This document shows, in pieces, positions 438-22,331 of a stretch of 22,331 nt of DNA (positions within the stretch are counted from its first letter, which is position 1; the number at the start of each line of letters is the position of its first letter). The stretch is from IMG/VR virus record IMGVR_UViG_3300030382_004308, positions 1-22,331 of that record; one strand, 5' to 3'. A program made the translations under genes and the position numbers. The stretch is from a virus. A model generated the notes under the pieces. That model had not been told where the DNA came from. It did not search any database and worked only from the letters and a program-made list of their open reading frames with translations.

Positions 438-1141
438 GATTTTAGCTCCTTGATTTTGTTTCTTACGTTCCTCACGCTCGATGGATACCACTTCCCGCCA
501 TGACGAGAAGGAATGCCTCTTGCGTTTAAGGCATCGGCAATCTCTTTTAGGGTGTTCGACCCATGCATTTCGATTTGTTTAAAGATGGGTTGCATCTCTC
601 TTGCAAACTTTTTGAATCGTTCCTGGTTGTTCTTGGCATTGTTCTTGTGCAGTGATTTCCCAGCGTTTGGGCCACCGAGCTTAATGCCCTGTGCCTTCAT
701 CTTGGAAAAAGTTTTCTTGGTTTTCTCCGTGATCTCTTGCCGTCTGGCCTCTGCTGCTCCGGCCAGTGTATTGAGGTGAATGTAGTCGCCTCCAAGTGCA
801 TCACAGGCAATGAGGCGCACCTCCTTGTCCTCATACGCATCCATTAACATGCCAATGATCTTGAAGTTATAAAGCCTGGAGCCGAGCCGTGTTGCCACGA
901 TGTCTGCCCTCCTCGCCCGACACAGTTTCAATGCTTTCTCCAGCTCTGGCACATGGTTCGGGTTGTGGCTCTTCACCTCAATATAGGTCTTGATGTGGAT
1001 GTGGTTGCCGAGGCACTTATCGATGAACTTCTCTTGCTCTACGATGTCTCCTGGTGTGCCAGGCTTTAAGTAATAAACAAACTTGCCTTTGGTGAAGCGT
1101 TTGTAGTTGATGAATTTGTCATCCGCTCTTTTTTTTATCAT
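434..1141 (-). CDS. Serine-recombinase (resolvase) family protein with catalytic residues lost
   Basis: The 235-residue protein has the layout of short resolvase/invertase family proteins. It has an N-terminal resolvase-like domain (residues about 18-150) and a C-terminal helix-turn-helix of the 'Gxx-LxxIAxxLNxRGIPSxxGGxW' kind (about 193-235). The usual motif Y-Y-R-V-S-T is here YYLKPGT, so both the active-site serine and the following-domain arginine are missing. The DRP motif reads HVP, and the DRLAR motif reads SRLYN. The helix with AEARRQEITEKT and KAQGIKLGGPNAG is recognisably family-like. It is preceded by a good ribosome site (AAGGGAGAGCA) and sits between a 58-residue gene and a winged-helix-like gene in one minus-strand operon. 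The fold assignment is solid; loss of activity is inferred from motif reading. A role as a DNA-binding regulator is plausible but unproven. Confidence 0.8.
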   Translation of the reverse strand: MIKKRADDKFINYKRFTKGKFVYYLKPGTPGDIVEQEKFIDKCLGNHIHIKTYIEVKSHNPNHVPELEKALKLCRARRADIVATRLGSRLYNFKIIGMLMDAYEDKEVRLIACDALGGDYIHLNTLAGAAEARRQEITEKTKKTFSKMKAQGIKLGGPNAGKSLHKNNAKNNQERFKKFAREMQPIFKQIEMHGSNTLKEIADALNARGIPSRHGGKWYPSSVRNVRNKIKELKS

Positions 1142-1173
1142 TGCTCTCCCTTTTATGTATTACACGCAGCTAT

Positions 1174-1350
1174 TTACGATGCTTCTCCTGATTCTGTGGT
1201 ACAAATAATCGCGATCTCAACGCTTCCATCTTTGTTAAACGCAAGACTCTCAAAGTCATGGTCTTGGTGTACCTCCATTCCATAATTGCGATTTAAATAT
1301 TGGGCTACTACAAAACGAACTTCTTGTTCATCGATCGTTACATTGATCAT
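1174..1350 (-). CDS. Small hypothetical protein, 58 aa
   Basis: The reading frame starts MINVTIDEQEVRFVVAQYLN and ends TESGEAS. It has a strong ribosome site (AGGAGAAAATA directly before ATG) and is the first gene of the minus-strand operon, 32 bases upstream of the recombinase-like gene. The pattern (short strand, helix with VRFVVAQYL, then charged strand-turn-strand SLAFNKDGSVEIAIICT) suggests a compact alpha/beta protein. No family recognised. Similar short 'E-V-x-x-A-I-x-x-Y-L' proteins are common in phages, without known function. Confidence 0.7.
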   Translation of the reverse strand: MINVTIDEQEVRFVVAQYLNRNYGMEVHQDHDFESLAFNKDGSVEIAIICTTESGEAS

Positions 1351-1374
1351 TATTTTCTCCTATGTTTTTAGTCT

Positions 1375-1429
1375 ATCTAACACCCATCTACGGGTGATCT
1401 AACTATTGACAACTTATCAATATATCTAC
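1375..1429. promoter_or_regulatory. Phased ATCTA(A)C operator-like repeats
   Basis: Three direct copies start at 1375 (ATCTAAC), 1386 (ATCTAC) and 1397 (ATCTAAC), exactly 11 bp apart. A fourth ATCTAC is at 1424 and an inverted copy (TAGATAG) lies at 1451-1457. One turn of spacing places them on the same face of the helix. They sit between the divergent 58-aa gene and the ribbon-helix-helix gene. Regulators of that fold often bind short tandem repeats next to their own promoter, so the RHH product is the natural candidate ligand (inference). The short hairpin-like CACCC/GGGTG (1381-1385/1392-1396) lies between the copies. Confidence 0.55.
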
Positions 1430-1435
1430 ATAAAT
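1406..1435 (+). promoter_or_regulatory. Probable promoter with overlapping 15-bp palindrome, for the RHH gene
   Basis: A consensus -35 box TTGACA is at 1406-1411. Seventeen bases later is CATAAA (1429-1434), a weak -10; ATAAAT one base on is an alternative. The -35 box is part of TTGACAACTTATCAA (1406-1420), a palindrome with 6 of 7 arm pairs matching, which could be a repressor site. The direction points at the ATG at 1467. I could not find an equally clear promoter for the opposite operon. Confidence 0.5.
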
Positions 1436-1466
1436 ACAAATAATGATTTATAGATAGGGCAGTCAC

Positions 1467-1622
1467 ATGAAACAAGAAAGAAAATATAAAGCGCTCTGGG
1501 TGGATGAAGAGCTGGGGCGTGAAGTCGCTGCTCTGGCTGACTTTCAGCGCAGAACCATACGCAGTGTCGTTGAACATGCCCTGAGGAAAACAATCAGGGA
1601 CGAGGCGGAAAAAAATGGTTAA
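1467..1622 (+). CDS. Small ribbon-helix-helix (Arc/CopG-like) regulator, 51 aa
   Basis: The protein is 51 residues: a short N-terminal strand (KYKALWVDEEL) then two helices (GREVAALADFQ and IRSVVEHALRKTIRDEAE) with the RTIRSVV turn typical of Arc/CopG ribbon-helix-helix repressors. These bind DNA as dimers through the beta strand. The gene is the first on the plus strand and diverges from a three-gene operon that includes a recombinase-like protein. The intervening 116 bases carry phased repeats and a palindrome, so autoregulation is likely (inference). The ribosome site is weak (ATAGGG about 7 bases upstream). It is too short for confident homology, but length, composition and strand-helix-helix pattern agree. 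Confidence 0.72.
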   Translation: MKQERKYKALWVDEELGREVAALADFQRRTIRSVVEHALRKTIRDEAEKNG

Positions 1623-1649
1623 TGAAAAAGCCCAAATGCGCGGAGACAG

Positions 1650-1994
1650 GTGAAAACACAAAGCGCAAAAGCAAAAGGTAGGAAGCTGCAACAGTGGTTT
1701 ACCAAGTTGTTAGTAGATGCTTTGGGCTTGGATGAGGATGATTTGGAAAGCAGACCAATGGGAAGCCAGGGTGAAGACATTATTATGGGCAAGCAGTCAA
1801 GGGATCGCTTCAATTATTCCATAGAGTGCAAGAACCAAGAGCGGGTCAATGTTTGGCAATCATATGACCAGGCAAAAACAAACTGCAAGGGATATGAGCC
1901 GCTGTTGGTCATTAAAAGAAACAGAAGTAAGCCATTGGCAGTAATGGATGCTGAACATTTTGTGGGCCTGTTTAAGGATGATGCCCATGATTGA
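1650..1994 (+). CDS. PD-(D/E)XK nuclease, Holliday-junction-resolvase-like
   Basis: The 114-residue protein begins with GTG at 1650, with GGAG six bases upstream; no in-frame ATG lies upstream. It shows the nuclease core: a helix rich in basic residues (AKAKGRKLQQWFTKLL), then RPMGSQGEDIIM (E42, D43) and SIECKNQE (E59, K61), which match the E...D...ExK metal-binding set of small phage resolvase-type PD-(D/E)XK enzymes. The WQSYDQAK helix and the LLVIKRNRSKPLAVMD strands complete the fold. Related phage genes are usually annotated as putative Holliday-junction resolvases or PDDEXK endonucleases acting on branched DNA in replication, recombination or packaging. It overlaps the next gene by eight bases and lies in an early nucleic-acid gene block. 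Confidence 0.75.
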   Translation: MKTQSAKAKGRKLQQWFTKLLVDALGLDEDDLESRPMGSQGEDIIMGKQSRDRFNYSIECKNQERVNVWQSYDQAKTNCKGYEPLLVIKRNRSKPLAVMDAEHFVGLFKDDAHD

Positions 1995-2169
1995 GATTGG
2001 CACAAATGATTTCAATGACTTCTTGGAGTTCGTTGAGTCGTTTTATCAAGGGTATATAGAGAGCTGTAGGAACCAAGGAAAAGAACCGATTGATTATGAA
2101 CAGTATCGAGACTCAAGGTTCTTCTGGTTGATTGATCGATACAAAGAATATAGAGGATTGAGGCATTGA
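1987..2169 (+). CDS. Small hypothetical protein, 60 aa
   Basis: The product runs MIEIGTNDFNDFLEFVESF to YKEYRGLRH. I chose the ATG at 1987 because AAGGA (1974-1978) is then eight bases upstream; ATG codons at 1948, 1978 and 1981 are in frame but poorly placed. It overlaps the end of the nuclease gene by eight bases and its stop overlaps the TTG start of the methyltransferase, so it is part of a coupled early operon. The protein is helical, aromatic and mixed-charge (FFWLIDRYKEYRG). No family recognised. Confidence 0.6.
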   Translation: MIEIGTNDFNDFLEFVESFYQGYIESCRNQGKEPIDYEQYRDSRFFWLIDRYKEYRGLRH

Positions 2170-2678
2170 ATGTACGGGTTTTTGATATTTGTTCTGGCAT
2201 CGGTGGATTCTCACTTGGGCTTCATGCCACAGGTGGATTTGAAACAGTCGCCTTTTGTGAGTACGACCCATTCTGTCAGAGCATCTTGGAAAAGAACTTT
2301 CCAGGCATACCCATCTATGGAGATTTAAAAGAGTTAGCCAATGACGAAGAAACAATCAGAACTATTCCCGACTTCGACCTCATCTGCGGTGGCATCCCCT
2401 GTCAGCCCTTCAGTGTTGCGGGAAACAAAAAAGGAACGCAAGATGACCGACACCTCTGGCCGTACATGCTTGAAATTATTAAACAGAAAAAACCCACTTA
2501 TGCAGTTATCGAAAACGTTGGTGGCTTCGTCAACGTGGCACTCGACCTTGTGTGTTTTGACTTGGAAGCCGAAGGTTACGCCACACAATCGTTTGTTATT
2601 CCAGCTTGCAGTGTCCAAGCACCCCATCGAAGAGACCGAGTCTGGATCATCGGAAGGAAAGAAGATGCTGCCGAATAA
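2166..2678 (+). CDS. Cytosine-C5 DNA methyltransferase, catalytic (N-terminal) part
   Basis: This 170-residue frame holds the AdoMet-binding and catalytic motifs of C5 methyltransferases. Motif I is DICSGIGGFSLGL (7-19), motif IV GGIPCQPFSVAG with the catalytic cysteine C79, motif VI ENV (116-118), and motif VIII HRRDRVWIIG (154-163). It then stops at 2676-2678, before any target-recognition domain or motifs IX-X. Those are encoded in the +1 frame by the next gene, whose ATG lies 14 bases before this stop. The start is TTG at 2166 (AGAGG nine bases upstream); an in-frame TAG at 2151 excludes longer forms. A full C5 enzyme is usually over 300 residues, so this is half an enzyme: either a natural two-subunit type like M.AquI, or a frameshift. 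Its role is likely protection of phage DNA against host restriction. Confidence 0.88.
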   Translation: MNVRVFDICSGIGGFSLGLHATGGFETVAFCEYDPFCQSILEKNFPGIPIYGDLKELANDEETIRTIPDFDLICGGIPCQPFSVAGNKKGTQDDRHLWPYMLEIIKQKKPTYAVIENVGGFVNVALDLVCFDLEAEGYATQSFVIPACSVQAPHRRDRVWIIGRKEDAAE

Positions 2679-3594
2679 GAAAAACCTATGGTCAACACCA
2701 ACTGCTTTTGATGCACATAACATCAAAGGCGAAAGAAAGAAATCATCAGGGGGTCAAATTGAGCCTTTACAACAACAAGTCAGAATGTGGCCGACACCAT
2801 CAGCGCAACAGGCAGGGGACGGGGACTTCATAGAGACACTTCAGACCAAGGACGGGAAGCCAGCAGAGCCGGGGCAACGCGCCTACAACCCGAAGACGGG
2901 GAAACACAGCCAGATCACGTTGAATCGGGCGGTGAAGATGTGGCCGACACCACAAGCCAAAGATCACGATTTAGAGCCATTAAAAAAATGGAAAAAAAGG
3001 TCGAAAAAGAAAAAAGAGCAAGGAATCAATTTACAGTTTGCATTAAGACATGCGGTTCAAATGTGGCCGACACCAAGAGTCAGCGACACCGAAGGCGGTG
3101 TGGTGAAGAATGTCGAACTGAACAATGGCAACTTCAGTCGCACCAATAAGAAAGGTGTGAGATGGGGTGTAAAGTTAAAAGATGCGGTGAGTCATGTTGA
3201 GATGTTGCCAACACCAGCAGCGAGGGATTGGAAAGGCGGTAGAAAACCAGAAACATTAAAGAAAGCTGGTCGAAACGAAAACAACTCATTGCCAGACAAG
3301 GTCAATGCACAATTACAAACAACAGGCGCACTCAACCCTGATTGGGTGGAATGGCTGATGGGTTATGGTCAGGGTTATACCGATCCAGATAATAAAGACA
3401 GCTTTACTTTGGGTTCCCATCAGGGGTTTGCAATCGAGCCTGATACAGCAAGGGTCACGACTGAGAATCAATACCGCAAAAACAGATTAAAGGCATTGGG
3501 TAATTCCATCGTGCCACAGATTGCATACCACATTGGCAATGCGATTTTAGAACAGGAGGGGCAAATTGACGCCCGATCCACAAAAAGAGGCTGA
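2665..3594 (+). CDS. Cytosine-C5 DNA methyltransferase, target-recognition and C-terminal part
   Basis: The 309-residue frame from ATG 2665 continues the methyltransferase in the +1 frame. It carries five spaced WPTP-type modules (LWSTPTAFD, MWPTPSAQQ, MWPTPQAKD, MWPTPRVSD, MLPTPAARD), as seen in the variable region of many phage C5 enzymes. Next comes LNPDWVEWLMGYGQGYT, and near the C-terminus LKALGNSIVPQIAYHIGNAI (motifs IX-X, GNSIVPQ at 279-285). A strong ribosome site (GGAAGG, 2652-2657, seven bases before ATG) supports independent translation. The same frame is open back to 2341, but that stretch is the out-of-frame image of the catalytic part. With the upstream gene it makes up one complete C5 methyltransferase. 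The target sequence cannot be predicted. Confidence 0.8.
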   Translation: MLPNKKNLWSTPTAFDAHNIKGERKKSSGGQIEPLQQQVRMWPTPSAQQAGDGDFIETLQTKDGKPAEPGQRAYNPKTGKHSQITLNRAVKMWPTPQAKDHDLEPLKKWKKRSKKKKEQGINLQFALRHAVQMWPTPRVSDTEGGVVKNVELNNGNFSRTNKKGVRWGVKLKDAVSHVEMLPTPAARDWKGGRKPETLKKAGRNENNSLPDKVNAQLQTTGALNPDWVEWLMGYGQGYTDPDNKDSFTLGSHQGFAIEPDTARVTTENQYRKNRLKALGNSIVPQIAYHIGNAILEQEGQIDARSTKRG

Positions 3595-3649
3595 AAGGCA
3601 TATGGCGATCCTACTTTGGATTGGCGTATTAACAATAATAATTAACTAA
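3566..3649 (+). CDS. Very small membrane protein, 27 aa
   Basis: A TTG at 3566 is preceded by a near-perfect ribosome site (AGGAGG, 3554-3559, six bases away) inside the end of the methyltransferase gene. The frame reads (M)TPDPQKEAERHMAILLWIG, then VLTIIIN and stop: a charged N-terminus followed by one short hydrophobic segment of about 15 residues. An ATG at 3602 would give only the hydrophobic part. It precedes the single-strand-binding-like gene. The strong ribosome site is the main argument; function unknown. Confidence 0.5.
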   Translation: MTPDPQKEAERHMAILLWIGVLTIIIN

Positions 3650-3661
3650 AGGAGAAAAATC

Positions 3662-4279
3662 ATGAGTGATGATTATGGATTTGGAGAGGATAACAACTCA
3701 GAAAGCCGTTTCATGTACTTTGCCCACCAGGGCGAATTTGAAAACAAATTTTATCGCGGAAAAGGCGATGGCAAAGAAGCCGTCAACTTTAAGCATATTA
3801 TATTTGACCACGACTCAATCCAAACTGGATGGGTGTGGGTGAGAGCCGGAATGGAGCCAATTTGTGTGTGGAATGACGAGCCGAAAGTGTGGAAAGCCAA
3901 CCCAGGACAAAGCCAACAAGAGATGGACAACTACAAAAAAGGATTCAACATCAATGGATATGTGCAAGACGTTGGATTGCTCACCTGGAGTGGATCATCT
4001 TTTGGCTCGGGCAAAGCGTTTGGCAAAATGATGTCTGACATCGAGGCACAACGAGTGGCTAACTCTGGCAAATATCCAGTGGTTCAATTCGATGGAGCCG
4101 AGGTCATGCGCTTTAGCAGTGGTGGCAGTTCGTCCATCCCTAATTTGAGCGTGGTCAGTTGGGCGGAAGATAAAAACTACTTCACGGAAGCTCAACCCAA
4201 TGGTGCATATCAAGAACCCGCGCCAGTGGCACAACAACAACACGAAGTCATCCCCCAAAGCGAGGACATCCCGTTTTAA
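3662..4279 (+). CDS. Probable single-stranded DNA-binding protein
   Basis: The 205-residue protein has a beta-rich body (residues about 15-170: GKGDGKEAVNFKHIIFDHDS, GWVWVRAG, YKKGFNINGYV, GLLTWSGSS, YPVVQFDG), a Pro/Gln-rich linker (PAPVAQQQHEV) and an acidic tip ending in SEDIPF. An acidic 'DD/ED-IPF' tail is the hallmark by which single-strand DNA-binding proteins recruit replication partners. The ribosome site is strong (AAAGGAG). It sits in the early block with nuclease, methyltransferase and primase-helicase genes, as expected for a replication protein. The body does not match a bacterial SSB by eye, so a phage-specific OB-fold type is assumed. Function call moderate. Confidence 0.65.
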   Translation: MSDDYGFGEDNNSESRFMYFAHQGEFENKFYRGKGDGKEAVNFKHIIFDHDSIQTGWVWVRAGMEPICVWNDEPKVWKANPGQSQQEMDNYKKGFNINGYVQDVGLLTWSGSSFGSGKAFGKMMSDIEAQRVANSGKYPVVQFDGAEVMRFSSGGSSSIPNLSVVSWAEDKNYFTEAQPNGAYQEPAPVAQQQHEVIPQSEDIPF

Positions 4280-4599: not shown

Positions 4600-4815
4600 A
4601 TGATCGAAAGACGCAAAATAATGAATGAGTCGTTAAAAATAGTCATTACAGGGCTGATCTCAGCGTACCCAATCTCATTGTTCGTGATCTTTTTATGTAT
4701 TGATGTTTTTCAATACTCATCTGTAATTACATCCACAATAAATACATTTGTTTTAACTCTGGTCGCAGTAATTCGTGTCTATTTTATTCGACTGCATACC
4801 GAGAAAAACAAGTGA
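4600..4815 (+). CDS. Small two-helix membrane protein, 71 aa
   Basis: Two hydrophobic segments (about residues 13-33, VITGLISAYPISLFVIFLC, and 39-61, SVITSTINTFVLTLVAVIRV) are separated by a short loop and flanked by basic ends (IERRKI, RLHTEKNK). This predicts a hairpin membrane protein with both ends inside the cell. AAGGAG lies seven bases before the ATG at 4600; a second ATG at 4621 would remove only seven residues. Its stop overlaps the GTG start of the PAPS-reductase-like gene. Unknown function; a superinfection-exclusion role is only a guess. Confidence 0.65.
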   Translation: MIERRKIMNESLKIVITGLISAYPISLFVIFLCIDVFQYSSVITSTINTFVLTLVAVIRVYFIRLHTEKNK

Positions 4816-5663
4816 ATGAAGAACAGATATTTTTACCTGAGAGGTTCGACTGCCCTACCCTGATCAGTTTCAGTGGTGGCAGAACATCGGGTTATATGCT
4901 CTATAAAATTCTTGAGTCTTACGATGGTGTTTTGCCAGACGATGTGCATGTCACATTTGCAAACACAGGGAAGGAAATGCCTGAGACTTTGGATTTCATT
5001 AATGACTGTGCTGTGAACTGGAATGTCAATGTCAGATGGTTGGAGCTGGACATACAAGATGAGCGACCCATCTATCGCACCAAAGAGGCCACATACGAAA
5101 CAGCATCAAGAAATGGCGAGCCTTTTGAGGCTTTAATAAAGAGAAAGAAAATGCTTCCAAATGTAATGATGAGGATTTGCACAGAGCAAATGAAAGTAAA
5201 CGTAATGAAAAGATTTATGCAAGGACAAGATTATAAACATTGGGCGAATGTGATTGGGCTTAGATATGACGAGCCGAAAAGAGTCACCAAACAAAGAAAA
5301 CAAAATGATTCGGGCAAAAACAAATGGACATCTGTTGTGCCACTTTATGACAACAAAGTAATGATTCAGGATGTTTCAAGTTTTTGGGAAAACAATACTT
5401 TCGACTTAAGATTACCCAATCACAATGGTAAAACACAGGCGGGCAACTGTGATTTGTGTTTTCTAAAAGGCACAAAAACACTGGTCAACATATTACAAGA
5501 AAGGCCGAGCCTGGCGGATTGGTGGATTGAGCAAGAGACAAAAGCAAACGCAACATTCAGCAAGCTAAGAGGCTATGAGGATTTAGTTGAAATGGCAAAG
5601 CTCGATGCAAAGCAAGTGGAAATGTTTGATGACGATTCGAGGAGTTGTTTCTGCCATGATTGA
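4812..5663 (+). CDS. PAPS-reductase-like PP-loop protein (phage type)
   Basis: The 283-residue protein begins with GTG (GTGA overlap with the upstream stop). It carries the PP-loop ATP-pyrophosphatase signature SFSGGRTS (19-26) and the following NTGKE (51-55), typical of PAPS/adenosine-phosphosulfate reductase family members that activate substrates with ATP. Cysteines cluster as C123, C213-x2-C216 and C279-x-C281, which could hold an iron-sulfur cluster. Phages commonly carry this family. Relatives include DndC-type DNA phosphorothioation enzymes and tRNA thiolation enzymes, so sulfur transfer to a nucleic acid is possible, as is sulfur metabolism. No other Dnd-like gene is visible in the window. 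It overlaps the primase-helicase gene by eight bases. Family certain, substrate unknown. Confidence 0.85.
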   Translation: MNEEQIFLPERFDCPTLISFSGGRTSGYMLYKILESYDGVLPDDVHVTFANTGKEMPETLDFINDCAVNWNVNVRWLELDIQDERPIYRTKEATYETASRNGEPFEALIKRKKMLPNVMMRICTEQMKVNVMKRFMQGQDYKHWANVIGLRYDEPKRVTKQRKQNDSGKNKWTSVVPLYDNKVMIQDVSSFWENNTFDLRLPNHNGKTQAGNCDLCFLKGTKTLVNILQERPSLADWWIEQETKANATFSKLRGYEDLVEMAKLDAKQVEMFDDDSRSCFCHD

Positions 5664-7718: not shown

Positions 7719-8303
7719 ATGGACAAAGAGTACATAATACAAAATATCAGGGATAAGAAATTCCAAGAGCGCAAAGCGGAGGCTGGTCGCGTTTATTCCG
7801 AGATGCTTAAATTGAAAGCAGAGATTTCGGCTCGTTGGGGATATCAAAGAATGATGGAGATAGTCAGCTCAGATTTAAGGATGAGGATGGGTCGTCAAAA
7901 TATGCTTCTATCCAATGCGGTACTCAAGGGAGAGCCAGAAGAGATGATTAAGCAGACCGAGGCTATGAAAAGAGGTTTAAACGCCCTGGATGATTATGTG
8001 CGTAAACAGGGATTTGAAGAACTTGATCCGGACATCTGGATCACTAAGCACCCAAAAACAGGGATACAAATTGTTATTGCTCTGTCTGCGGATGCATTGG
8101 AAAAGTGTGCTGCAATCTGTCAGGCAGAGAAACCATCTTTATATTTTAGCATCAATGAAATTTACTCCATGATTGATGAAGAGGTGTTTGAGATTAAGAG
8201 TCGTTTCAATGGTAAGTTTGGCAATGTGGAGATATTGGATCGCAAGGCAATAGACATAAACGAAAAAGCAAAGGGATTTCTGGAAGATGAATTGCTCCTT
8301 TGA
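7719..8303 (+). CDS. Hypothetical protein, 194 aa, largely helical
   Basis: The product begins MDKEYIIQNIRDKKFQERKA and ends FLEDELLL. Residues 1-110 are rich in Lys, Glu, Arg and Met with long helical stretches (KAEAGRVYSEMLKLKAEI, MIKQTEAMKRGLNALDDYV). Residues 110-150 look like a beta segment (IWITKHPKTGIQIVIALS), followed by a helical, acidic C-terminus. There is no Shine-Dalgarno beyond GAG directly before the ATG. It lies after the candidate origin and overlaps the following nuclease gene as TTGA, suggesting the two are used together. No family recognised. Confidence 0.7.
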   Translation: MDKEYIIQNIRDKKFQERKAEAGRVYSEMLKLKAEISARWGYQRMMEIVSSDLRMRMGRQNMLLSNAVLKGEPEEMIKQTEAMKRGLNALDDYVRKQGFEELDPDIWITKHPKTGIQIVIALSADALEKCAAICQAEKPSLYFSINEIYSMIDEEVFEIKSRFNGKFGNVEILDRKAIDINEKAKGFLEDELLL

Positions 8304-8701
8304 GCCATTACAAGAAAAAATACGGAACCAGTGGCGAGTTTTTAGTTGCTATTTTTCTCATGATGCGGGATTACAATGTGTTTGAACCAGCTGCCACAGG
8401 AGCGAGGGACTTACTGGTTGAAATCGATGATAAATACTATGGGGTACAGGTTAAAAGCGTTATGAATCTTTATGAAGACCCAAACCGAAAGAAACAACGG
8501 TTTAAATTCAATCTTCAACACTCAGGCAGTCAAAAAGCCTACGATCCAGACGTTGTCCAGATTTTCGCATGTGTAGGCCTAGAAAGTAGGAGGATCATTT
8601 TTCTCAAAAACATAGGCCAGAAGTTTAAAAGCATCAATACCGAGGATTTCAACAAACAAAAAGAAAGAGCCTCTTTCGAGGCTCTACTCAGGGAGTTATA
8701 A
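8300..8701 (+). CDS. PD-(D/E)XK endonuclease (PDDEXK_5-like)
   Basis: The 133-residue product has the layout of small PD-(D/E)XK nucleases of the type grouped with intron-associated endonucleases. It shows GTSGEFLVAIFL (E13 on the first helix), ATGARDLLVEID (D37), and YYGVQVKSV (Q50-V-K52), then FKFNLQHSG and a strand IFACVGLESRRIIFL. The E...D...(Q)xK pattern is the metal-binding core. It starts with TTG at 8300, overlapping the upstream stop; the ribosome site is poor (GGAAG about 13 bases upstream), so translational coupling is likely. The target is unknown. It lies near no visible intron here, so a role in phage recombination or host DNA attack is as likely as homing. Confidence 0.75.
   Translation: MSHYKKKYGTSGEFLVAIFLMMRDYNVFEPAATGARDLLVEIDDKYYGVQVKSVMNLYEDPNRKKQRFKFNLQHSGSQKAYDPDVVQIFACVGLESRRIIFLKNIGQKFKSINTEDFNKQKERASFEALLREL
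8666..8685. repeat. Perfect 8-bp hairpin at the end of the nuclease gene
   Basis: AGAGCCTC (8666-8673) and GAGGCTCT (8678-8685) pair perfectly around TTTC, inside the last codons of the plus-strand nuclease gene and about 90 bases before the convergent minus-strand genes end. Being symmetric, it could limit read-through from both sides, although neither side has a good T-run. The 77 bases from 8702 to 8778 contain no convincing gene. Confidence 0.45.
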
Positions 8702-10359: not shown

Positions 10360-10839
10360 ATGGCTAAATTTAAAGTAATACCACTGACGCTCAAAACAGC
10401 AAACTCTTATGTCGGGGAGTTTCACAGGCACAACAAGCCCTGTGTCGGCCACCGGTTCTCCATCGGCGCATTAGATGAAAACGAAAACATTGTTGGCGTT
10501 GCAATAATCGGCAGGCCCGTTGCAAGAATGTTGGATGATGGATTAACAGCAGAGGTCAATCGTGTTTGCACCAACGATGATAGCCCCAAAAATGTTTGCT
10601 CGTTTCTTTACGCGAGAGCATGGCGTATATGGCAACAAATGGGGGGCGAGAGAATGATTACTTACACGCTGCAATCCGAGCCTGGCTCGAGCTTGAAGGG
10701 TGCTGGGTGGAAAATATCGGGAGAAACAAAAAAGAATGACTACTGGACAACAAGAAAAAAAACTCATTTAGGCTATGTTGTGGACAGAACCGCACAAGCT
10801 GTAGATGGTCAATTAAAATTTAGATGGGAAGCTCAATGA
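10360..10839 (+). CDS. XF1762-like protein (GNAT-like fold)
   Basis: The 159-residue product matches a compact phage/prophage family often labelled XF1762: HRHNKPCVGHRFSIGALD, then VGVAIIGRPVARMLDDGL, EVNRVCTNDDSPKNVCSFLY, and MITYTLQSEPGSSLKGAGWK. The central strand-helix pattern and the YTLxSEPGxSLxxAGW ending resemble GNAT acetyltransferases, but the substrate is unknown. No Shine-Dalgarno precedes the ATG; instead there is an A/T-rich leader with eight T in a row. It sits between the terminase subunits and its stop overlaps the large terminase start as ATGA, so it is co-translated with packaging genes. Confidence 0.78.
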   Translation: MAKFKVIPLTLKTANSYVGEFHRHNKPCVGHRFSIGALDENENIVGVAIIGRPVARMLDDGLTAEVNRVCTNDDSPKNVCSFLYARAWRIWQQMGGERMITYTLQSEPGSSLKGAGWKISGETKKNDYWTTRKKTHLGYVVDRTAQAVDGQLKFRWEAQ

Positions 10840-15441: not shown

Positions 15442-17574
15442 ATGAATTGGGTTTATAACACCGCCACTGGTCAGTGGGGCATCACAACCCCTACCGGCGA
15501 CTTTTTGCCTGTGCCTGGAGCAACCGGGCCGTATGCGGGCGGTGATGTAGACTACATTCCCCCTGGTGGCGATGAAGAGTCTTCACTGCCCTCTAACCCC
15601 CTCGGTGGCTCAAACAACGACACCGTAGGCTCTGGAAATAGCCAACCACCTTTATGGGAAGGTATAGACCCTATGGGTGCAGGCATTGCTGGTGTCAATA
15701 CGCCCGGAAGAAAGCTCGGACAAGGAAACAACCCCGGGCAACAAACAACAACCAGCGGCGGCATCGAAGTAACAAAAGCGCAAAAGCGTGATGCCAGGAA
15801 CATACGAAACGAGTTTGATTTAAAAGAAGGCGATTACATTTGGGATAGAAACTCGGACATTGTTTGGATAGTCAACGAGAAAGGAATTGAAGCTGTTGGC
15901 GAAATACCTGGACCAACTGTATTAGAAGATGGAACCACCATTTATGGACAGAGCATAGGCGATGTCAGAGATTGGGAGGTGGGTGATCGGCTCTTTACCG
16001 CGAACAAAATGCAAAACGCAGACGGCACTTGGGAGTGGGAAACAACCTATAGCGAATATGATCCAGAAAGTGATGAGACCGGATTAAACCCATGGGACTT
16101 AATAACAGACGAAGAAGGATCGGTAGATGATACTGAGCCTACTGTCGATAACCCATTCCCACCAATCGTTTTAGATGATGGCACAGTGATAAATCCGCCA
16201 ATAGTACCCACACCAACACCTACTCCGACTCCAACACCTACTCCTACACCTACGCCAACACCTACACCAACTCCTACTCCTACACCAGTAGTGCCAACAC
16301 CTACACCAGTAGTACCAACCCCTACACCTACACCCGTTCCTACTCCTACACCTACTCCTACACCGGTAATACCAACTCCTACACCAGTAGTACCAACCCC
16401 TACCCCCACCCCAACCCCAACTCCTGTTCCAACACCTACACCGGTAATACCTACTCCTACACCTACTCCTACACCAGTAGTACCAACCCCTACGCCAGTA
16501 ATACCTACTCCTACTCCTACTCCTACTCCAACTCCAACACCTACACCGGTAATACCAACACCTACTCCAACTCCAACACCTACACCGGTAATACCAACAC
16601 CTACTCCAACCCCAGCTCCTACTCCAACTCCAACTCCGGTAATACCTACACCCACACCTACACCCACACCTACACCAACTCCTGTACCACCCACTAATCC
16701 ATGGCCACCAGTTCCTACTCCGACTCCTACGCCAGTACCAACTCCTACTCCTACACCGGTAATACCTACTCCAACACCTACACCGGTAGTACCAACACCT
16801 ACTCCAGTAATACCTACTCCAACACCCACTCCAGTAATACCAACTCCTACTCCTACACCAGTAATACCCACTCCTACTCCTACACCTACACCAGTAATAC
16901 CCACTCCTACTCCTACACCTACCCCTGTTGTGACTCCGACTCCAACACCTACACCTACCCCTGTTGTGACTCCGACTCCAACACCTACACCTACACCAAC
17001 CCCTACCCCTACCCCTGTGCCACCTACTAGTCCTTGGCCGCCTTCACCAACACCTACACCTACACCTACTCCCGATGGAGATGTTGGGGTTGGTGATGAT
17101 GTTGGGGTTGGTGATGATGTTGGGGTTGGTGATGATGTTGGGGTTGGTGATGATGTTGGTGACGGAGATGGAACTGGAACTGGAGATGGAACCGGTGACG
17201 GAGATGGTGATGGAACTGGAGATGGAACAGGCGACACAGGCTACGTTCCGCCAATCGAAGGTTCAGACGACTATGAATATACTCCGGTCAGTTACACGCC
17301 TTTCAATATTCAATATCCAGCGTATGAGCCAAGAGATTTTATCGCGCCAGGCATTTCATATTCACCAGAAGTGCCAGAAGGATATACGGTTTATGATGAT
17401 GTTTACGACCCTTTTGTGTATAACCCGCCAGTTGTAGAATCATACGCAAGCGAGTCCCCACTCTCTTATGACCCAATAGGATTAGAAGAAATTACCAAAC
17501 CTAGAGGTTACAACCCCCTAGATATTACGGACATACAAGCAATTCTAAACAGCATAGGGAAGAACAATGGTTAA
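15442..17574 (+). CDS. Large Thr-Pro-repeat protein, 710 aa
   Basis: Three parts. Residues 1-254 are ordered and acidic (start [38 protein letters not shown]). Residues about 255-544 are Thr-Pro repeats broken by [14 protein letters not shown] and two PWPP punctuation marks. The tail has four copies of an Asp-Val-Gly repeat, more Gly-Asp, then a Tyr/Pro-rich end ([15 protein letters not shown], ending SIGKNNG). No signal peptide or membrane segment is seen. The long PT stretch should be an extended, non-globular spacer, so a virion or cell-surface linker role is plausible. It sits between the lysis-type genes and the scaffold gene. No homologue is recognised by eye for the ends. There is no clear ribosome site; it starts right after the previous stop (TAAATG). 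Confidence 0.75.
16204..17073. repeat. Hexanucleotide-type Thr-Pro coding repeat, about 870 bp
   Basis: Almost every codon pair is a synonymous version of Thr-Pro (ACA/ACT/ACC/ACG with CCT/CCA/CCC/CCG), interrupted by Val, Ile and two PWPP sites (about 16698 and 17032). The mix of synonymous codons shows old divergence between copies, yet the period-six pattern remains, and short exact blocks recur (for example the Val-Ile-Pro module many times). Such repeats change length easily by slippage or recombination. Confidence 0.9.
17080..17151. repeat. Four tandem copies of an 18-bp repeat
   Basis: GATGTTGGGGTTGGTGAT occurs four times in a row (17080, 17098, 17116, 17134), identical in all copies, coding Asp-Val-Gly-Val-Gly-Asp, then decays into GAT/GGA/ACT-rich sequence. 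Exact identity suggests recent expansion. Confidence 0.9.
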
Positions 17575-18952: not shown

Positions 18953-19888
18953 ATGGCTAAAGTAACCAATGCGTTCGATACCTATACAGCGACTTCTGAC
19001 AGAGAGGCATTGAGTGATTTGATTTACAACATATCACCAATTTCGACTCCCATATTTAGTGCCATAGGGAAGAACAATGTAAAAAACGTCCAGTTTGACT
19101 GGCAGACTGAGGCATTGCCTTCAGCGTCAGCAACGGGACAACTCGAAGGATTTGAACTTTCAAGGTCTGCCTCTACTGCAACAGTAAGAGAAAGCAATGT
19201 ATGTCAAATCTCAAGCAGAGATGCAACCGTGAGCGGAAGTCAGAGCGCATCAGACCCCGCTGGCAAGAAATCAGAAATGGCTCACCAACTCGCAATTATG
19301 GCTAAAGCCCTAAAGCGCGATATGGAAAAAACCATTTGTGGTAACACTGCTAAAGCAACGGGTGACGCAACCACAGCAAGGCAAACAGGTGGCTTTGAAA
19401 CTTGGATTGAAACCAATGTTTCCAGAGGCACTAACGGTGCTGGTGCTGGTAATGGTGCTGCCCCAACTGATGGCACTCAACGTGCGTTCACAGAAGCTAT
19501 CTTAAAAGATGTGCAACAACTTTGCTTTGAGAACGGCGGCGAACCCGATATGTTGGTCGTTGGCGCTCATGTCAAAGGCGTTGTTTCTGGATTCACAGGA
19601 CGAGCTTCTGCAAGGCAAATGATCGATGCAACCCAAATCGAGGCCTCGGTAAGCGTGTACTCAGGAGATTTCGGTGAATTAAAAGTGATGCCTTCTAACT
19701 TCAGTAGAAGCAGAACTGCACTATTCATCGACCCTGATTATGCAAAAGTTTCATATCTTAGAGATTTTGAAACTGTTGACATTTCAACAATCGGTGATGC
19801 TCAAACAAAAATGTTGGTTGTCGAGTATGGACTTGAGTGCTCTAACGAGAAAGCTCATGGTCTAGCTGCTGACTTATCTACATCGTAA
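18953..19888 (+). CDS. Major capsid protein (SU10-like, DUF5309 type)
   Basis: 311 residues. The N-terminus MAKVTNAFDTYTATSDREAL, SDLIYNISPISTPIFSAIG and VQFDWQTEALP is characteristic of the SU10/DUF5309 major head proteins. The middle has HQLAIMAKALKRDMEKTICG (long helix) and a Gly/Ala loop (NGAGAGNGAAPTDGTQ). The C-terminus has KVMPSNFSRSRTALFIDPDY and RDFETVDISTIGDAQTKMLV, HK97-fold strands. A strong ribosome site (AGAAGGAGAATTAGC) agrees with high expression. A 9-bp hairpin follows the gene. Expected to form the icosahedral shell. Confidence 0.93.
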   Translation: MAKVTNAFDTYTATSDREALSDLIYNISPISTPIFSAIGKNNVKNVQFDWQTEALPSASATGQLEGFELSRSASTATVRESNVCQISSRDATVSGSQSASDPAGKKSEMAHQLAIMAKALKRDMEKTICGNTAKATGDATTARQTGGFETWIETNVSRGTNGAGAGNGAAPTDGTQRAFTEAILKDVQQLCFENGGEPDMLVVGAHVKGVVSGFTGRASARQMIDATQIEASVSVYSGDFGELKVMPSNFSRSRTALFIDPDYAKVSYLRDFETVDISTIGDAQTKMLVVEYGLECSNEKAHGLAADLSTS

Positions 19889-22103: not shown

Positions 22104-22184
22104 ATGGCAGATACAACAACGACTAATTTGTCTTTGACAAAACCAGAAGTCGGAGCCTCAACTGACACTTGGGGTACAAAGCTT
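22104..22184 (+). CDS. Tail-fibre-type gene, first exon only
   Basis: ATG at 22104. The first 27 residues, [20 protein letters not shown] then DTWGTKL, match a well-known N-terminus of tail or fibre proteins in environmental phages, where 'WGxKLNxDLDxID' normally continues. Here the frame changes to RILSHIRAI and stops at 22212-22214. The break falls exactly after codon 27 (CTT, 22182-22184), where a group I intron appears to begin. The rest of the gene should resume after the intron, beyond the window. AGG about eight bases upstream is the only ribosome site. Confidence 0.8.
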
Positions 22185-22331
22185 AGAATATTGAGCCATA
22201 TTAGAGCAATCTAATAATGAAAACTCGGTGAATTGCTGGGAACTCCTAACGAGAAAGACGAGGACAATCAGCACCCAAGCCAACGAAAGGTATTAAAGTA
22301 GTTGGAAGGATCAACGACTAGAGAGTGAGAA
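22185..22331 (+). ncRNA. Group I self-splicing intron, 5' part (cut by window end)
   Basis: The 5' splice site is placed after 22184. P1: exon GCTT plus AG (22181-22186) pairs with TTGAGC (22191-22196), giving the required U-G pair at the splice site. P2: TATTAGA (22199-22205) pairs with TCTAATA (22210-22216) around a GCAA tetraloop. Core: P element AATTGCTGGGAA (22231-22242), Q element AATCAGCACCCAAGC (22266-22280), P4 TGCTG/CAGCA, P5 TCCT (22244) with AGGA (22261), P6a CCAAC (22280-22284) with GTTGG (22301-22305), R element GATCAACGACTAGA (22309-22322), and P3 ACTC (22223)/GAGT (22323). P7 3' strand, P8, P9 and the 3' splice site lie outside. Subgroup and any homing nuclease cannot be judged. 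Confidence 0.85.

Follow-up and report, generated by a model that had tools for sequence, protein, structure and literature searches.

The IMG/VR record IMGVR_UViG_3300030382_004308 is a 22331-base fragment from a tailed phage and is referred to here, in its full length, as the window; we deal with metagenomic contigs throughout, and its relatives are cited by L numbers. The fragment encodes a terminase, a portal protein, a scaffold protein, an SU10-type major capsid protein and a tail tubular-like protein, together with three more genes of the structural region, and then a gene that begins at position 22104. This last gene, a tail fibre gene by homology and position, is interrupted after 27 codons. 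We consider it very probable (about 0.92) that the window ends in a compact, endonuclease-free, IA-like group I intron, which would be spliced out of the message of a podovirus-like tail fibre gene and has spread between phages by DNA recombination.

The interrupted tail fibre gene

The gene order helps to identify the fibre gene. On the plus strand, between 18953 and 22063, the major capsid gene (18953-19888) is followed by a 97-amino acid (aa) gene, the tail tubular-like gene, a 129-aa gene and a 256-aa gene, and then by the fibre gene. The 5' exon of the latter (22104-22184, plus strand, phase 0) starts with the ATG at 22104 and comprises 27 codons ending at 22184, so that coding stops exactly at a codon boundary, as had been proposed in the initial annotation. 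It is 93% identical to uninterrupted fibre N-termini of phages with the same gene order, in which the polypeptide runs unbroken through TWGTKxNxDLDTxD. The homologue of this N-terminus in Sinorhizobium phage phiM5 bears the annotation of a putative host-binding tail fibre detected in particles, and the product of exon 2 matches tail-fibre PHROGs. An intron effect was also considered for the seeming absence of fibre genes in the Chlorobiaceae phage CV-1-33 and in MW202711, and was rejected in favour of wrong-strand annotation. In both, the fibre gene is open but unannotated (L090 3001-4143 in MW202711, L093 3001-3738 in CV-1-33), open reading frames (ORFs) on the opposite strand having been called instead.

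The insert opens with AGA ATA and reads in frame to a TAA (22212-22214), its tenth codon; an unspliced message would specify a product of 36 aa, made of 27 exon and 9 intron codons. The window holds the 5' 147 nt (22185-22331, plus strand) of an intron of about 262 nt that matches RF00028 and is 95-99% identical to the same-site introns of L003, L019, L052 and L171, and 96% to that of L088. All the elements previously noted there, namely a P1 with its U-G pair, a GCAA-capped P2 and the P, Q and R core elements, are found at 22181-22320. P1 (22181-22196) pairs the exon GCUU (22181-22184) with the internal guide GAGC (22193-22196), placing the last exon U opposite G at the splice site. It is followed by the P2 hairpin AUUAGA-GCAA-UCUAAU (22200-22215), which recurs in the fold of the L088 intron, and by the 5' strand of P3, CUCGG (22224-22228), whose partner lies beyond the contig end. 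P4 and P5 occupy 22234-22273 (P4, 22234-22238 with 22269-22273; P5, 22244-22247 with 22261-22264) and P6a 22280-22305 (22280-22284 with 22301-22305). The 5' strand of P7, GACUA, is the R element (22316-22320). The core elements read UUGCUGG for P, AAUCAGCA for Q and UCAACGACUA for the R strand.

A whole-record search with RF00028 gives 38.9 bits (E 1.8e-10), and local scoring at the window end 48.3 bits (E 1.7e-11) for a match that spans model positions 1-150 of 253 and is cut on its 3' side. No match is reported in the window at the Rfam gathering threshold of 50 bits, because the match is truncated by the contig end. The missing half is supplied by L088 (identical to L062, IMGVR_UViG_3300030109_002863), the closest relative that reaches further, whose fibre start and intron are 84% identical in nucleotide sequence to those of the window. 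Its intron is complete (L088 5215-5476, 262 nt) and scores 116.3 bits over the full model. The P7'/S element, P8, P9 and terminal G that the initial annotation had expected downstream are all present. The intron ends ...AACAAAACTG and is followed in frame by AAT AAC GAC CTG GAC ACA ATA GAC, i.e. NNDLDTIDAL, in agreement with the predicted continuation N-x-D-x-D-x-I-D; beyond the intron the ORF listing gives 546 codons without a stop. In relatives, the introns end in ...AACTG or ...AATTG and then continue with AATAAC or AATACC (NxD), which gives a terminal G and an in-frame exon. Intronless relatives read across the same junction like the spliced exons. The initial claim of a phase 0 group I intron in a tail-fibre-type gene is thus borne out, by the covariance model as well as by the continuation of the exon.

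Covariation argues for conservation of the fold. An alignment of 12 related introns contains 43 pairs (P3 to P9.x, with P7 pseudoknotted), and 96.9% of its cells are paired, as compared with only 27-41% when the partners are slid by 1-3 columns. Both sides have changed in 23 of the 43 pairs, among them four of the five P3 pairs. In the L156 intron two adjacent P7 pairs change together, a double compensatory change. Exon and guide also covary across sites (GCUU/GAGC, GCGU/GCGC, GCCU/GGGC), and P10 forms at the fibre site between the 3' exon AAUA(A) and the 5' side of the guide. The fold of the L088 intron is 3.6 standard deviations better than those of dinucleotide shuffles. Between the 5' strand of P7 and the 3' strand of P3, the place of P7.1/P7.2 in IA introns, some 30 nt are inserted that include a GAGAG..CUCUC stem. 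By every criterion that can be applied to the sequence, the element is a group I intron. Matches in Staphylococcus and Flavobacterium phages cover only part of it and belong to other group I introns; its exact core finds no match among prokaryote genome contigs.

Structure, site and exon continuity are directly legible in these sequences, and from them we infer splicing activity. The transcript would fold into P1-P9, and an external guanosine bound at P7 would direct cleavage immediately 3' of the U in the U-G pair of P1. Ligation of ...GTKL to NxDLDTIDAL... would then restore the fibre. Without splicing, translation would end at the tenth intron codon.

Spread of the intron among fibre genes

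The fibre site is occupied in seven contigs besides the window (L003, L019, L052, L053, L088, L171 and L336; eight in all) and empty in 90 distinct, uninterrupted fibre N-termini among the retrieved contigs. In L156 a closely similar intron, whose guide differs (GGGC for GCCU), interrupts the Ser19 codon, 26 nt upstream of this site. The introns of the window lineage are compact (248-270 nt) and contain no endonuclease ORF, the longest stop-free run on either strand being 63 aa.

Introns at the fibre site are 85-99% identical. Left of them the flanks are mostly only 37-60% identical, except for two pairs at 91-93%, over the mere 100 bases or so available; to the right, the first 60 bases of exon 2 show 57-73% identity. 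L052 illustrates this pattern. Its capsid protein is 66% identical to that of the window (34% of residues differ), while exon 1 matches at 81 of 81 positions and the intron at 95%. More generally, exon 1 of the window matches intron-bearing genes at 72-81 of 81 positions and the 90 intronless genes at 52-66, and only one of these 90 has GCTT immediately 5' of the site. Near-identity of exon 1 and intron despite diverged flanks and capsids indicates that the two travel as one block, spread by recombination, in a manner reminiscent of a homing event that co-converts the 5' exon. The presence/absence pattern and the shared block are there to be read in the contigs; we infer the repair route and an endonuclease in trans. 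Intronless fibre genes would acquire a copy of the block through gene conversion or homologous recombination, a process probably started by such an endonuclease.

Several points weigh against this interpretation. The window ends before the 3' half of the intron, P7', P8, P9, the omega-G and exon 2 all lying beyond 22331. Beside P4/P6, the window and most fibre-site copies have a C where L088 and the capsid gene introns have a G. Of 15 intron-bearing records, the window among them and most of them fragments, none is matched by the HNH, HNH_3 or GIY-YIG profiles (LAGLIDADG and other families were not searched). Finally, exchange of an N-terminal fibre module that carried the intron along could also account for the identity of exon 1.

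A PD-(D/E)XK gene of the window (8300-8701), whose PF11645 match is weak and stays below cut-off, was weighed as a possible free-standing homing endonuclease and set aside since more diverged copies occur in intronless phages, i.e. it is not specific. Among more distant members of the same capsid family, L012, L026, L035 and L037 have an ORF with an HNH-type motif directly upstream of a capsid gene intron core. In L026 this ORF runs into the intron core and its Pfam HNH match lies above cut-off. It appears from these ORFs that endonuclease-bearing versions of such introns exist.

The passenger model, in which the N-terminal anchor of the fibre is swapped and the intron rides along without homing, concerns only the mode of spread and not the nature of the element. 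It is rather unlikely, yet it is the most serious competitor. In its favour are the modular make-up of tail fibres, the joint movement of exon 1 and intron, and the lack of any HNH, HNH_3 or GIY-YIG match. However, the similarity falls steeply on either side, from the intron into the start of exon 2 (its first 60 bases) and into most left flanks, which indicates that exon 1 and intron alone were exchanged. Moreover, capsid gene introns have also been gained or lost, between phages that are 98-99% identical.

Insertion by reverse splicing at RNA sites complementary to the guide, followed by reverse transcription and recombination, likewise rivals the mode of spread only; neither estimate excludes the group I identification. 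It would account for related introns lying at different sites that all end in GCTT, GCGT or GCCT, and for the displaced L156 intron with its different guide, again with no endonuclease found by the three profiles. Nevertheless it is improbable. A functional intron has to fit its guide in any case, which makes a shared motif expected, and the joint movement of exon 1 and intron at the fibre site speaks for recombination at the DNA level. The identity between introns of different sites is only 57-77%, and on this ground a recent jump from fibre to capsid sites or the reverse was rejected, the short shift in L156 being the exception.

A decayed intron, an ex-ribozyme that no longer splices and leaves a truncated fibre (a pseudogene or an alternative short product), is very unlikely. 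The C beside P4/P6 could be taken as a sign of decay, and so could one extra base at P7' in the fibre introns of L171 and L336. Against this, the core pairs are maintained by compensatory changes, the L088 copy scores 116 bits and is followed by its long open exon 2, and introns 94-99% identical across diverged phages are recent rather than drifting. That an unrelated intron was joined to the fibre start in an assembly chimera, as might be suspected of a contig ending inside the feature, is refuted, as is chance, since the same intron and junction occur at the same position in the seven other contigs, which come from different records.

Introns in capsid genes

The major capsid gene of the window has an empty site at 18974/18975 (plus strand). 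L086, 99.4% identical to the window over 1.8 kb, carries a 255-nt group I intron after base 18974, in codon 8 (phase 1), while the site is empty in the window and in L087. The codon-8 intron recurs in seven more phages (L178-L182, L186 and L187). In L086 (1872-2126) and the other codon-8 introns, the P5 loop sequence CCTAACGAATAAGACGAGG occurs twice, the second copy lying in the P7.1/P7.2 region. The L171 locus starts with the 3' end of a codon-8 intron and has two complete capsid introns in addition to its fibre intron; the full contig yields four RF00028 matches. L336 is 98-99% identical to L171 and is without the second and third capsid introns. Within L171 106-719, which holds the two extra introns, the exon between them is only 92% identical to L336, as against 98-99% outside, which suggests that this exon was exchanged together with the introns.

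Capsid genes also harbour such introns more widely. The core motif GGTGAATTGCTGGRAACYCCTAA retrieved 61 stretches, reduced to 30 non-redundant cases, which are a sample of particular intron clades and not an unbiased census. In 20 of the 30 (L008, L009, L011, L012, L014, L016, L018, L022, L023, L025, L026, L029, L033, L034, L036, L037, L041, L043, L046 and L061) the next ORF is a major head protein, from seven PHROG families and usually starting mid-profile. Capsid exons were confirmed on both sides in L008, L018, L033 and L043 and in L012, L026, L029, L034, L036, L041 and L046. A second core motif likewise retrieved capsid gene introns. The extreme case is L040 (IMGVR_UViG_3300044547_001977; 529-3889, minus strand), where at least 11 group I introns interrupt a single major capsid gene. 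Its exons, of about 20-85 nt, are in order and match residues 4-24, 25-43, 48-58, 58-85, 88-103, 100-112 and 113-274 of the L061 capsid protein. The exon pattern is shared by L309 (a 279-kb contig) and L311, and introns are also present in L310. No phage gene with as many introns was found in the literature compared.

Other features of the window are given for completeness. A PTPTPT/PV repeat of great length and a GD-rich region are found in a 710-aa ORF (15442-17574), whose length varies in L087. A weak Mom-family match (10360-10839) beside the terminase gene, a C5-cytosine methylase fragment overlapping a longer frame (2166-2678) and a gene with a PAPS-reductase domain (4812-5663) possibly form a DNA-modification set.

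Known systems and significance

According to PMC11878797 (2025), phage introns are found for the most part in genes for nucleotide and DNA metabolism, in keeping with the initial annotation, which had called replication genes their more usual home. A structural gene is nevertheless a less exceptional site than it supposed, since precedents exist (PMC3706429, PMC7886860). In cluster J mycobacteriophages, group I-type introns interrupt the capsid gene of LittleE and the minor tail gene of BAKA and Optimus; that of BAKA is 265 bp long and endonuclease-free, and its splicing was proven by reverse transcription PCR (PMC3706429). As here, the capsid and tail gene introns of LittleE and BAKA are present in some phages and absent from close relatives. 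The present case differs in the phages and the tail gene involved: the intron lies in the fibre N-terminus, the exon 1 block is shared across diverged phages and there are several capsid sites in the same lineage. The capsid intron of Tuc2009, as cited in PMC3706429, is a further structural gene precedent. Twort orf142, which encodes the tail tube protein, has several small group I introns within one structural gene, according to the discussion in PMC11878797; it resembles the present gene in this respect and differs in host and gene, no fibre insertion being given for Twort in that discussion.

The major capsid protein gene of crAss-like Delta/Zeta phages is split into up to five fragments by group I introns (PMC7886860). 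Like the phages studied here, these are uncultivated and have several group I introns in the capsid gene; set against their introns, those of the window lineage are all 248-270 nt and encode no endonuclease. In collaborative homing, an endonuclease-free intron is paired with a free-standing endonuclease, in cyanophage psbA and in T3/T7-like phages, as cited in PMC10448857. The likeness lies in a compact intron that spreads without an endonuclease of its own; unlike in those systems, no endonuclease was found near the introns here with the HNH, HNH_3 and GIY-YIG searches. No report of a group I intron at this fibre site was found in a literature search of partial coverage. What is new here is the fibre N-terminus as a host and the exon 1 block common to diverged phages, the type of element being already known.

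The results suggest that phage group I introns sit in capsid genes far more often than one would gather from isolate collections. One may tentatively go further, at somewhat less than even odds, and postulate a compact group I lineage specialised on virion genes, which would inhabit the capsid genes of many unrelated families, at least 11 introns to a gene in the extreme, and here the fibre gene, recombining together with its 5' exon. If true, this would run contrary to the view that phage introns reside mainly in nucleotide and replication genes. The introns also show how fibre and capsid genes of uncultivated phages come to be overlooked or cut short by gene callers. The fibre site, filled in eight contigs but uninterrupted in 90 distinct relatives, is a natural presence/absence system in which endonuclease-free spread can be tested.
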